IMG/VR virus record: IMGVR_UViG_3300006919_013261
Span: 1 to 22,358 of that record
DNA: 22,358 bases
Direction: 5' to 3' (one strand)
DNA from: a virus
A program made the translations under genes and the position numbers. The stretch's first letter is position 1. Each line of letters begins with the position of its first letter. Below the pieces are notes generated by a model. That model did no database searches, was not told the DNA's origin, and saw only the letters and a program-made list of their open reading frames with translations. Below are positions 3 to 3,773 of this stretch, piece after piece.

Positions 3-332
3 GCTTTTAGAATGGGAAATTGGGATGCTGATAAAGTAGGTTATTTTACTCCTTATTTAAATACTGATAAATTTGGTATTTTACAAGATGGAGAAATATT
101 ATGTAACAAATTAAATATTGAATTCGATGAAGTCTATTCTAGAACTAATACTAGTTATAAGCCTTTTCCTAGTGGGAACAGTGATTATAAATCTGCTTCA
201 TCTGTTGAACGAATTGAAGCTTTTATTGCGTTGGGTAGGAAAGACCCTGTACAATATGAAGACGAAACTGGTCCAGTAGATTATGAAGTAGCGAAAGCCC
301 ATGTAGTTCAAGTTCTTGCTGAATATGTATAG
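3..332 (+). CDS. queC: QueC-like 7-cyano-7-deazaguanine synthase, C-terminal part (5' end outside window)
   Basis: The frame is open to the window edge, so this is the C-terminal part of a longer gene; the first Met (base 12) need not be the start. QueC converts 7-carboxy-7-deazaguanine to preQ0 using ATP and ammonia. The fragment follows the QueC C-terminus: a TPYLNTDK segment where the family has the 'PL..K.eI' stretch, then TNTSY in place of TWSCY, then SVERIEAF and GRKDPVQYE matching the usual 'C.ER.EAF..AG..DP..YE' ending. All four zinc-binding cysteines of the family are absent: SCY reads TSY, and the CxxCxxC stretch reads D-Y-K-S-A-S-S. The only Cys visible lies upstream, in GEILCNKL. 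It is followed by queD, queE and folE, which supports the assignment. The variant may be a QueC paralogue with a changed reaction. Family assignment is good; activity is uncertain. Confidence 0.75.
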   Translation, partial: AFRMGNWDADKVGYFTPYLNTDKFGILQDGEILCNKLNIEFDEVYSRTNTSYKPFPSGNSDYKSASSVERIEAFIALGRKDPVQYEDETGPVDYEVAKAHVVQVLAEYV

Positions 333-883: not shown

Positions 884-1126
884 ATGAATAAAATTTATTA
901 TTTTAGTGCACCCTGGTGTGGTCCATGTAAAATGTTAGGACCTGTAATGGATAAAAGTGGGTTACCTTTCCAAAAAATTAATGTAGATAATGATTCAACA
1001 TTATCAGCTAAATATGGAATTAGAAATGTTCCTACTTTAGTAAAAGTAGATGCTAATGGAAATGAAATTAGTAGATTAGTAGGTAATAATCCTTTAGATA
1101 AAATTAAAATTTGGTATAATGGGTAA
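884..1126 (+). CDS. Mini-thioredoxin / glutaredoxin-like protein
   Basis: An 80-residue thioredoxin-fold protein with the classic active site WCGPC at residues 11-15 after a beta strand (KIYYFSAP), the NVDND element that follows strand 2, and the cis-proline motif NVPTL with Pro at residue 50. It is shorter than host thioredoxin (about 105-110 residues) because it starts directly at the active-site strand, as many phage thioredoxins do. It would reduce disulfides or act as electron donor in the cytoplasm; phage ribonucleotide reductase is the usual partner but none lies in this window. Its last bases overlap the start of queD by 8, so the two are probably translated from one message. The redox identity is strong; the partner is unknown. 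Confidence 0.88.
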   Translation: MNKIYYFSAPWCGPCKMLGPVMDKSGLPFQKINVDNDSTLSAKYGIRNVPTLVKVDANGNEISRLVGNNPLDKIKIWYNG

Positions 1127-1583
1127 ATTTCAATCAAGCAAAGTATTTGACGGTTTTTCTACAGTATTCCGTCAATGGAAAGCAGAAACAACTCACTGTA
1201 GATTTGTACATGGTTATGGAATTTCATTTAAAGTATATTTTGAAGGAGAATTAGATGAAAGAAATTGGGTATGGGATTTTGGTGGAATGAAAAGAGCTAA
1301 AACTTTAATTGATGGTAAACAACCAAAAGCATGGATGGATTATATGTTTGATCATACTATGATTATAGCTGAAGATGATCCTGAAGTAAAAGCATTTCAA
1401 CAAATGGAAGTTGCTGGTGTAGCCCAAGTGAGAATAATCCCAGCTACTGGTGCAGAAAAATTTGCTGAATATATTTATACTAAATTAAATAGTTTTGTTA
1501 AAGCTGAAACCGATAATCGAGTAAGAGTAACGAGAGTGAAATTTATGGAACACGGGAAAAATGCAGCAAGTTATAGTGAATAA
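1119..1583 (+). CDS. queD: 6-carboxytetrahydropterin synthase (QueD / PTPS family)
   Basis: A 154-residue QueD/PTPS-fold enzyme that would convert 7,8-dihydroneopterin triphosphate (the FolE product) to 6-carboxytetrahydropterin, the QueE substrate. Visible landmarks are the catalytic Cys27 in THCRFVHGY, the ELDERNWVWDFG segment equivalent to 'LD..G.v.DF..lk', the DH pair at residues 78-79 (FDHTMII) and Glu113 in ATGAEKFAEYI, the 'T.E..A..i' motif. The textbook zinc triad is altered: the N-terminal AAH reads VFR and HGH reads HGY. From memory the same FRQW...HCRF.HGY pattern and EHG.N.A.Y ending occur in an alphaproteobacterial subfamily, so I read this as a known divergent branch rather than a dead enzyme. 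It overlaps the thioredoxin gene and leads into queE. Confidence 0.85.
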   Translation: MGKFQSSKVFDGFSTVFRQWKAETTHCRFVHGYGISFKVYFEGELDERNWVWDFGGMKRAKTLIDGKQPKAWMDYMFDHTMIIAEDDPEVKAFQQMEVAGVAQVRIIPATGAEKFAEYIYTKLNSFVKAETDNRVRVTRVKFMEHGKNAASYSE

Positions 1584-1626
1584 AAGTACAACAGTGAATG
1601 AAAAACCACTTAAAAAAATTAACAAT

Positions 1627-2412
1627 ATGCACAAGCAATTAAAAAGGGTTACAGACTACGAAAAAAACTTACCCATTGTAGAAATTTACACAGCAGTACA
1701 ATCAGAAGGATCAAGAGCAGGATACCCTACAGTAGTCATTAGAACTACAGGGTGTACACACAGATGTTATTTTGGAGAAGGAGGATGGTGTGATAGTTGG
1801 TATACGAGCATCCACCCAGAAAAAGGACATTTTAATTTTAAAGATATTATTAAAGCATATGAGGATAACCCTCATATAAAGGAAATGATGTTAACAGGAG
1901 GATCTCCTACAATGCATCCCGCTTTAGTAAACGAATTAACCCATTTTGCTCATGAAAACAATATATTCATTACTATTGAAACTGAAGGAAGCCATTTCTT
2001 ACCAACTGATTATCCTATTAATTTGCTTTCTATTAGTCCTAAGTTCTCCAATAGTGTACCTGTACTTGGGGTATCAACGCCTCAAGGAGCTGTTACAGAT
2101 CAAAGAATGATCGATAGACATAATAAACTTAGACTTAATTATGAATCGATAAAACAATCAATTGCTTACCATTCAGATTATCATATTAAACCTGTATGGG
2201 ATGGAAAAGATAAAGGAGCATTAGCTGAAATTATGGAATGTATTTCTATATTAGACGTTAAGCCTGAAAAAGTATGGTTTATGCCTGCTGGAGATAGTAG
2301 AGAAGCATTATTTAAATCTTATCCTGTATTATTTGATTGGGTTAGAGATAATGGCTATAGAATGACATGGAGACCCCACATTATTGCTTTTGAAGACCAA
2401 CGTGAAGTATAG
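1627..2412 (+). CDS. queE: 7-carboxy-7-deazaguanine synthase (QueE, radical SAM)
   Basis: A radical SAM enzyme of about 261 residues that ring-contracts 6-carboxytetrahydropterin to 7-carboxy-7-deazaguanine (CDG). Residues 17-32 (PIVEIYTAVQSEGSRAG) match the QueE substrate segment 'EiF.siQGEG...G'. The cluster cysteines are C43, C47 and C55, that is CX3CX7C in TGCTHRCYFGEGGWCDSWYT, longer than the canonical CX3CX2C. LTGGSPTMHP is the GGE-type SAM motif, with S in place of the usual E, and TIETEGS is the substrate/SAM strand. I prefer ATG 1627; an in-frame ATG at 1561 would add 22 unconserved-looking residues and overlap queD by 23 bases. The stop TAG overlaps the GTG of the next micro-gene. 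Function is well supported by neighbouring queD and folE. Confidence 0.88.
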   Translation: MHKQLKRVTDYEKNLPIVEIYTAVQSEGSRAGYPTVVIRTTGCTHRCYFGEGGWCDSWYTSIHPEKGHFNFKDIIKAYEDNPHIKEMMLTGGSPTMHPALVNELTHFAHENNIFITIETEGSHFLPTDYPINLLSISPKFSNSVPVLGVSTPQGAVTDQRMIDRHNKLRLNYESIKQSIAYHSDYHIKPVWDGKDKGALAEIMECISILDVKPEKVWFMPAGDSREALFKSYPVLFDWVRDNGYRMTWRPHIIAFEDQREV

Positions 2413-2555
2413 TGGACAAAGAAGAGGCATTAGAAATATTAGAAGAAATAGCAGATAATGTACATACATGCTGTGCCATAACAATGGAACCAGATGAAGT
2501 ATTAGTATTAATAGATAAATTAAAAAGTTATATAGAAAATGGAGAACAAACGTAG
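2412..2555 (+). CDS. Hypothetical acidic micro-protein between queE and folE
   Basis: A GTG at 2412 sharing its G with the queE stop (TAGTG) opens 47 codons to TAG at 2553-2555, overlapping the folE start at 2539 by 17 bases. The product is strongly acidic and helical (starts MDKEEALEILEEIADN, reading GTG as Met), has a CC pair near residue 20, and ends DKLKSYIENGEQT. Without it there would be a 126-base gap between two tightly packed enzyme genes, and the junction geometry matches other couplings in the window. No family is recognised. It may be a small regulator or an enzyme partner, but nothing in the sequence shows that. Confidence 0.55.
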   Translation: MDKEEALEILEEIADNVHTCCAITMEPDEVLVLIDKLKSYIENGEQT

Positions 2556-3234
2556 AAAAGTTCACGAAGAACTAGAAGTTGTAAAAGTAGGTTATGCAAA
2601 TGGTGTTGCAGAAGGATTTCCCTTTACAGATAAACAAAAATTAAAAATGATTAGTAATGCAGAAAAGGCTTATGGTAAGTTTTTAGATGCATTAAAATGT
2701 GATTGGAGAAATGACCCCAATTCAATGGAAACACCTCGTAGAGTAGCTAAAGCTTATGTAAACGATTTATGGGCTGGTAGATATACTGCAATGTCTCCTA
2801 TTACTTCATTCCCCTCAGATGGTTATGACGGTATTGTTATAGAACGTAATATACCATTAACTTCAATGTGTTCACATCACCACCAAACAATTGGAGGTGT
2901 GGTTCATATAGGTTATATACCAGGAGAAAATGGTCAAGTAATTGGTTTATCAAAACTAAATAGAATTGTAGAATTATTTGGTAGAAGAGGTGCAATACAA
3001 GAACAATTAACATCAGCAATTCATAATGCTGTAGATAAAATTACAGACGAAAATAAAGGAGTTATTGTTACTATAGTTGGAACACATAATTGTGTTAGTT
3101 GTAGAGGTGTTAAACACCAAGGTGCTGCAATGGTAACCACTAAAGCATCAGGTGTGTTTAGAGAAAATGATAACCTAGCTAGAAAAGAATTTTTTGATAG
3201 TTTAAAAATTAATAACGGAGGTCACAATATATAG
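2539..3234 (+). CDS. folE: GTP cyclohydrolase I (FolE type IA)
   Basis: A 231-residue FolE that makes 7,8-dihydroneopterin triphosphate from GTP, the entry step for both tetrahydrofolate and 7-deazaguanine synthesis. Family landmarks in order: ETPRRVAKAYVNDLW (residues 64-78), the zinc/active-site segment TSMCSHHHQTIGGVVHIGYIP with C111 and H114, the IGLSKLNRIVELFGRR segment (135-150), and HNCVSCRGVKHQGA with C185 as the second zinc Cys. The usual CEHH reads CSHH and MRGV reads CRGV, so an extra Cys (C188) lies next to the metal site. Together with queD and queE this completes the route GTP to CDG inside the phage. Ends 2 bases before the phosphoribosyltransferase gene. Confidence 0.93.
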   Translation: MENKRRKVHEELEVVKVGYANGVAEGFPFTDKQKLKMISNAEKAYGKFLDALKCDWRNDPNSMETPRRVAKAYVNDLWAGRYTAMSPITSFPSDGYDGIVIERNIPLTSMCSHHHQTIGGVVHIGYIPGENGQVIGLSKLNRIVELFGRRGAIQEQLTSAIHNAVDKITDENKGVIVTIVGTHNCVSCRGVKHQGAAMVTTKASGVFRENDNLARKEFFDSLKINNGGHNI

Positions 3235-3236
3235 TT

Positions 3237-3773
3237 ATGTTAAAAATAGGTGAAAATAAATTAAAATTAAGTTGGGATGATGTTAGTAGATCAGTAGATG
3301 ATTTATGTAGAAAAATCCCAATGGAATTACCTTTAATAGATTCAGTACATGGTATAGCAAGAGGAGGTTTAATACCTGCTGTTATGATATCCCATAAACT
3401 AGATTTACCTTATGTAAAGGCTGTTGGACCTAATACTTTAGTAATAGATGACATAGCAGATAGTGGAGTTACTTTAGAAAAAGCACCTGGTGTTTATACA
3501 GCTGTTTTACATTATAAACCCCATACTTCTTGTTTTAAACCTAATTTATGGGCAGACTTACATGAAAGTGATGAGTGGTTAATTTATCCTTGGGAAAAAT
3601 ATGATTCAAAACCAATGCAAGATTATCTACAAAGCAAAGAATTTTCAGAGTTTGCGGAAAATGAAGATAATAGTTTGGTTTGGCCCGAAGAAGATTGTAA
3701 ATTACATACCGTAGGAGGATTAACAAATGATAAAGAAGGATCATTTATGAAATTTCAAAATAAAATAAAATAA
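3237..3773 (+). CDS. Type I phosphoribosyltransferase (purine-PRTase-like)
   Basis: A 178-residue protein with the type I PRTase fold. HGIARGGLIPAVMISHKL (residues 38-55) is the PPi-loop region, and NTLVIDDIADSGVTL (66-80) is the PRPP-binding loop with its DD pair. DEWLIYPWE (112-120) is the C-terminal hood motif seen in xanthine/guanine PRTase-like proteins. Residues 125-178 form an extra tail without recognised motifs. Such enzymes join a base to PRPP to give a nucleotide. Placement directly after folE/queDE makes a deazapurine or guanine base an attractive substrate, but that is inference from position only; ordinary purine salvage is equally possible. Followed 1 base later by the MazG-like gene, so the pair may act on nucleotide pools. 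Confidence 0.85.
   Translation: MLKIGENKLKLSWDDVSRSVDDLCRKIPMELPLIDSVHGIARGGLIPAVMISHKLDLPYVKAVGPNTLVIDDIADSGVTLEKAPGVYTAVLHYKPHTSCFKPNLWADLHESDEWLIYPWEKYDSKPMQDYLQSKEFSEFAENEDNSLVWPEEDCKLHTVGGLTNDKEGSFMKFQNKIK

Follow-up and report, generated by a model that had tools for sequence, protein, structure and literature searches.

A zinc-less QueC-like protein of a phage 7-deazaguanine locus is probably a zinc-independent preQ0 synthase

The four-cysteine zinc motif is described as a hallmark of QueC in PMC13329287, and its loss is easily taken for a lost or changed activity. We analyzed a stretch of viral DNA (the window; 22,358 bases, a whole IMG/VR virus record) whose first open frame (3-332, + strand) encodes a QueC-like protein in which all four of these cysteines are replaced. 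An earlier note, made from the sequence, had proposed a QueC derivative with a changed end point, e.g., activated CDG or an amide. We consider it probable that the protein is instead a zinc-independent QueC, most likely a preQ0 synthase that feeds a TGT-fold, DpdA-like enzyme, a reaction that we infer from its context. The features of the window are given in Table 1.

Table 1. The QueC-like gene fragment, its two replaced blocks and the neighboring genes in the window.
Feature	Position	Strand	Evidence or remark
Zinc-less QueC-like protein, C-terminal 109 residues	3..332	+	Gene cut by record start
TNTSYKP block	144..164	+	Ser (codon 153-155) in place of first zinc Cys, then conserved Tyr
SDYKSASSVER block, replacing CxxCxxC	180..212	+	Codons of Asp 183-185, Ser 192-194, Ser 201-203
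Thioredoxin-like protein, between queC and queD	884..1126	+	PF00085 4.3e-14
QueD-like protein, lacking two of the three zinc His	1119..1583	+	PF01242 2.8e-15, phrog_2389
QueE-like radical SAM protein	1561..2412	+	phrog_2076 4.1e-51
FolE (GTP cyclohydrolase I), with intact metal ligands	2539..3234	+	PF01227 7.9e-44
Phosphoribosyltransferase-like protein	3237..3773	+	PF00156 1.3e-4, phrog_8995 2.8e-14

The frame reads ...RTNTSYKPFPSGNSDYKSASSVERIEAFIALGRKDPVQYEDE..., which matches the text of the earlier note. By itself, this 109-residue fragment had no PF06508 match. An IMG/VR contig (L002) is 100% identical to the window over the 109 residues and contains the complete open reading frame (L002:7542-8330, 262 aa). 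Extension upstream, which had been proposed as a check, recovered the ATP-PP motif on this contig: the protein carries SGGMDS, together with YGQKHxxE, VPNRN and YPDC. It matched the QueC profile PF06508 with an E-value of 6.1e-37 and 127.6 bits (gathering cut-off 22), which bears out its membership of the QueC superfamily. Against the NCBIfam equivalog TIGR00364, it scored 130.1 bits, i.e., below the cut-off of 150.3. The only PDB sequences that matched at E<=1 were the QueCs 2pg3 and 3bl5. A fused glutamine amidotransferase domain gave no Pfam match at E<=1; the 262-aa protein is single-domain, unlike Gat-QueC. A scan of viral contigs yielded 197 relatives, of which 80 loci were kept (77 full length, 3 partial), and the nearest named phage was immuto, a Flavobacterium phage that came from a Baltic Sea mesocosm.

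The canonical arrangement TWSCY...HCGxCxxCVERxEAF corresponds to TNTSYKP...SDYKSASSVERIEAF in the phage protein. Cysteines 1 to 4 are replaced by Ser 204, Asp 214, Ser 217 and Ser 220, respectively (L002 numbering). Our alignment comprised 336 rows, repeated contigs included; the 165 phage rows of SDSS type represent 126 distinct proteins, and all of them have S, D, S, S instead of C(x)8CxxCxxC. The replacement of the four zinc cysteines that had been read from the fragment is thus confirmed. Alignment with QueC relatives did not place the cysteines elsewhere, and a frame error hiding an intact CxxCxxC was ruled out, as the replaced segment recurs in 80/80 kept loci. Twelve of 14 comparison proteins aligned with the phage protein keep all four cysteines, the exceptions being those of phage immuto and Rhizobium phage RHph_N17. 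Partial sites were also seen: a Pirellulaceae protein (L450, genome G101) has CTTD, with the first cysteine alone kept, and a viral protein (L295) has CCCD, with the fourth alone lost.

S204, D214, S217 and S220 were invariant in 126/126 distinct phage proteins, despite being encoded by 6, 2, 5 and 6 different codons, respectively. The mean frequency of the top residue in these proteins was 0.99 in the two replaced blocks versus 0.83 over the whole protein; the loop joining the two blocks varies in length and sequence. SGGxDS, the Y, Q, H and E of YxQxHxxE, RN, YPDC and the conserved Lys and Tyr were kept in 165/165 phage rows, with one D-to-N exchange in YPDC as the sole departure. The same motifs were found in the zinc-less rows from archaea, Pirellulaceae, Rhizobium phages and Poribacteria/Rhodothermus, where exceptions were confined to one archaeal row that starts late and one unknown letter. 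Because the substitutes are invariant and the catalytic motifs intact, we regard the zinc site as remodelled under selection and not decaying.

E. coli QueC variants Y35A, R99A, Y131A and Y189A are reported as inactive (PMC13329287). The same source describes clusters without the four-cysteine motif, which are LarE-like and GMP-synthase-like. In QatC, according to PMC13279940, zinc completes the fold, which fits a structural role. All four positions, Y35, R99, Y131 and Y189 of E. coli QueC, are conserved in the phage protein. Tyr 205 was matched to Y189 because both follow the first cysteine position, for which we presumed the exact E. coli numbering.

An AlphaFold2 model built on 56 aligned proteins reached a pLDDT of 93.4 and a pTM of 0.92; in the stretch of residues 201-230, the block means were 94, 94 and 97. 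Its fold neighbors, for which we also used Foldseek, were Cap9 9nto (Z 19.7, rmsd 2.0, 178 aligned), QueC 3bl5 (Z 19.6, rmsd 2.6, 189 aligned), QueC 2pg3 (Z 18.8, rmsd 2.9, 193 aligned) and QatC (Z 17.8); the next protein, outside the QueC family, followed at Z 13.4. Structure prediction, another check named earlier, hence returned a QueC-family fold. As the scores for Cap9 and QueC are tied, the fold alone leaves the choice between them undecided.

A genome scan produced close cellular relatives. Among the matches listed, proteins of Thalassarchaeaceae and Pirellulaceae had E-values from 7e-65 to 7e-60, followed by one truncated relative at 3e-44 and the next match at 5e-33. These archaeal and planctomycete proteins also lack the zinc cysteines (SSSD, SHTD), which rules out an oddity confined to phages; the earlier premise that the zinc site is near-universal in QueC needs correcting. 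At E<=1e-12, PF06508 matched in 53/60 Thalassarchaeaceae genomes, once per genome, and in 76/80 Pirellulaceae genomes; no match at this threshold was found in the other 7 and 4, respectively. No cysteine was left in the motif in 52/52 readable Thalassarchaeaceae proteins, the gene in genome G025 being truncated. By our sorting, the only match in 12/80 Pirellulaceae genomes was a protein of 106-148 bits standing in for canonical QueC; 11 of these 12 lack all four cysteines, and the twelfth is L450. In 61 Pirellulaceae genomes, the best match exceeded 200 bits, and 30/30 retrieved proteins were CCCC. Three genomes were left out of both groups, i.e., G106 (truncated), G136 (a CCCC fragment) and G137 (divergent, CCCC). 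Further PF06508 matches in the five genomes containing L199-L203 were weak and partial (20-24 bits). The cellular genomes are mostly metagenome-assembled, and a second QueC may have been overlooked in them.

The gene order folE, queE, zinc-less queC, queD was found in three archaeal contigs. By eye, an MsrB-like domain is fused to or lies beside the Thalassarchaeaceae zinc-less QueC at L199:2989-4080, L200:2974-4098 and L201:3749-4186. TGT was detected in 7/8 genomes tested, with exactly one in each of G020-G024, which have a full-length zinc-less queC; among the eight it was not found in G025, the genome with the truncated queC gene. QueF scored above the cut-off in 4/8 genomes, including the Pirellulaceae G023 and G024, and none of the archaea among the eight was positive. 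This pattern is what the queuosine route in Pirellulaceae and the archaeosine route in archaea would need from a preQ0 synthase.

We calculated a tree of 98 proteins, chosen for diversity, from an alignment with the ligand region removed. The phage, archaeal and Pirellulaceae zinc-less QueCs formed one clade (100/95) among zinc-bearing QueCs. The next branch outside it (97/94) is L350, a phage protein that bears the zinc site; the bootstrap had not settled (0.975). A Rhizobium-phage group (RHph_N17, RHEph06 and relatives) and a Poribacteria/Rhodothermus pair sit elsewhere in the tree. A single origin of all zinc-less QueCs was rejected (p-AU 1.8e-6); the zinc site was lost at least twice. A joint loss in the Rhizobium-phage group and the Poribacteria/Rhodothermus pair had a p-AU of 0.086, so that the total may be two losses or three.

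That the phage gene lies beside queD, queE and folE, as had been noted, was verified by Pfam and PHROG matches at 1119-3234 of the window. We compared the gene content of 20 phage records, most of them fragments, i.e., 19 of the 80 kept loci on longer contigs plus immuto. A DpdA-like family (phrog_19058) occurs in 18/20 of them; its gene lies upstream of queC (L002:6546-7349), outside the window. The DpdA-like protein had no Pfam match, and the Pfam TGT family PF01702 was found in 0/20 records at E<=0.1. A provisional reading of the latter result, that these phages have no transglycosylase, was dropped when the DpdA-like family was found and its fold checked: Z 16.6 to arcTGT 1iq8 (rmsd 3.2, 232 aligned) and Z 16.4 to DpdA 7ui4 (rmsd 3.3, 232 aligned). 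The copy in immuto (gp206) is annotated as DpdA, and on this basis the protein is a putative inserter of deazaguanine into DNA.

QueF was present in 10/20 phage records, including immuto, whose protein has both QueF domains; it was not found in 10/20, several of which are fragments. The substrate of QueF is preQ0, the nitrile. In one QueF-bearing record (L041), QueC is 79% identical to L002 QueC. As QueF and a zinc-less QueC occur in one phage, preQ0 is most simply made by the zinc-less QueC. A formyltransferase-like gene was found in exactly the same 10/20 records as QueF. In the retrieved flanks alone, QueF occurred at 9 loci and the formyltransferase at 6 with partial overlap because the flanks end early; overlap was full in whole records. 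In immuto, the formyltransferase-like gene gp204 (L104:8040-8567) is located between the gene for the DpdA-like protein and that for QueF. This would be consistent with formylated preQ1, a base known from phage DNA.

A phosphoribosyltransferase-like protein is encoded alongside 7-deazaguanine genes in 18/20 phage records. Its gene was located at L104:4932-5327 and on L486 and L487, and Campylobacter and Cellulophaga phages are among those that have relatives of it. A gene annotated as FolE in Stenotrophomonas phage Bhz54 contains the match within its N-terminal part, and in phiST the gene adjoins ribonucleotide reductase genes. The window protein (3237-3773) has a C-terminal tail, some 45 residues long, that ends in TVGGLTNDKxGSFMKFQxKI. 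The same tail is found on a mannose-6-phosphate-isomerase-like cupin (L041:12411-12938), which suggests a shuffled tail. One record labelled as an Acinetobacter phage (L084, CAKLQF020000007.1) resembles a bacterial chromosome: next to queE-queC it has dapD and a gene for a sulfate transporter among its contents.

Phage QueD was altered as well. In 111/111 related loci, two of the three His that bind zinc in the QueD family are F/I/L and Y, whereas the third zinc His, the catalytic Cys and the Asp-His pair are retained. The same change is found in Cellulophaga phage phi47:1 and Rhizobium phage RHEph06. Phage phi47:1 retains the QueC cysteines, and because it has only the QueD change, the zinc losses of QueD and QueC are not strictly coupled. 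The archaeal zinc-less QueC is paired with an ordinary QueD. The metal ligands of FolE were kept in 73/73 proteins, and the window QueD had no match among PDB sequences at E<=0.1. With such a change in the phage QueD, the pathway may depart from the ordinary one. QueC and QueD have both lost zinc ligands in these phages; that they belong to a largely metal-stripped pathway leading to a non-canonical base, which would be the amide in phages of the window type or a formylated preQ1 in those of the immuto type, we regard as doubtful.

As a zinc-independent QueC, the phage protein would be an ATP-dependent enzyme that converts 7-carboxy-7-deazaguanine via the amide to preQ0. In its C-terminal lobe, the conserved Ser/Asp/Ser/Ser turn stands where QueC has the structural zinc knuckle and may take over its role. 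preQ0 would presumably be handed to the TGT-fold, DpdA-like enzyme for insertion into phage DNA. The end base would be preQ0 in window-type phages and, after QueF, a preQ1 derivative in immuto-type phages. An enzyme halting at the amide, with the resulting ADG then put into phage DNA, we think unlikely, though conceivable in window-type phages, in which QueF was not found. The 10/20 records in which QueF was not found include the longest window-type contigs, and dADG is described in phage DNA, at high levels in Campylobacter phages, in PMC6884629; yet in two such phages, CP220 and CP21, QueC has its full set of cysteines (CCCC), so that we rejected zinc loss as a mark of an amide-making QueC. 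Moreover, the changed end point proposed earlier, whether activated CDG or amide, is not supported, in view of the conserved positions of Y35, R99, Y131 and Y189, of the closely similar zinc-less QueC of QueF-bearing phages and of the cellular zinc-less QueC, which is the sole QueC match in TGT-bearing archaeal and planctomycete genomes and is accompanied by QueF in the two Pirellulaceae tested.

The tied fold scores would also suit a ligase like Cap9 or QatC that joins deazaguanine to protein, for instance in phage counter-defence, and QueC-family proteins have been recruited for protein linkage (PMC13329287, PMC13279940). We consider this very improbable, as a full 7-deazaguanine gene set and a DpdA-like gene are adjacent, neither CD-NTase nor QatB was found among the window genes scanned (part of the gene set), Cap9 and QatC retain their zinc cysteines according to the same two sources, and the archaeal and planctomycete relatives replace QueC. 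That a hallmark site has lost every one of its four ligands might further point to a decaying or inactive QueC retained as a scaffold. This is hardly credible for a protein with its catalytic motifs kept, with substitutes invariant despite free synonymous change and with cellular relatives that are the sole QueC match beside TGT. In the reading we prefer, a zinc-independent preQ0 synthase, zinc looks dispensable and the chemistry not changed, because the normal role of QueC seems to be filled by close relatives of the protein in marine archaea and in some of the planctomycetes. As the protein fails both the zinc motif and the TIGR00364 tests, we describe it as a member of a zinc-less PF06508 subfamily working like QueC.

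For one family of archaea and some members of a planctomycete family, the zinc-less form appears to be the enzyme that underlies tRNA archaeosine and queuosine, respectively. Annotation by the motif or by an equivalog cut-off may wrongly exclude such proteins. They make the role of the QueC zinc directly testable, and immuto is an isolated virus whose modified base could be measured. A search of titles and abstract starts in the open-licence literature found no paper on zinc-less QueC.

Compared with canonical QueC (PDB 3BL5, 2PG3), the phage protein shares the fold, SGGxDS, YxQxHxxE, VPxRN, YPDC, the conserved Lys and Tyr and the neighboring genes queD, queE and folE; it differs in the missing zinc cysteines and the score below the TIGR00364 cut-off. 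Cap9 of type IV CBASS has the same fold; according to PMC13329287, however, it has about 185 aa with CxxCxxC, in contrast to 262 aa without zinc cysteines, and its gene adjoins that of a CD-NTase. QatC shares the core fold but differs in its substrate residues, in its extensions and in its four zinc cysteines (PMC13279940), with a Thr pair for the Tyr and Asp of YPDC, which the phage protein keeps. In the DpdA systems of phage 7-deazaguanine DNA modification (PMC6884629), a single phage likewise has folE, queD, queE, a queC-like gene and a gene for a TGT-fold protein. Here, in contrast, QueC and QueD are without zinc ligands, and the TGT-fold protein is not recognized by PF01702. Replacement of a zinc-dependent protein by a zinc-free version is known from ribosomal proteins, DksA2 and FolE2, and queC is Zur-regulated in Neisseria meningitidis (PMC6103462, PMC8000910). 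Those paralogues are described there as Zur-regulated spare copies; by contrast, the genomes examined here have no QueC match besides the zinc-less form.
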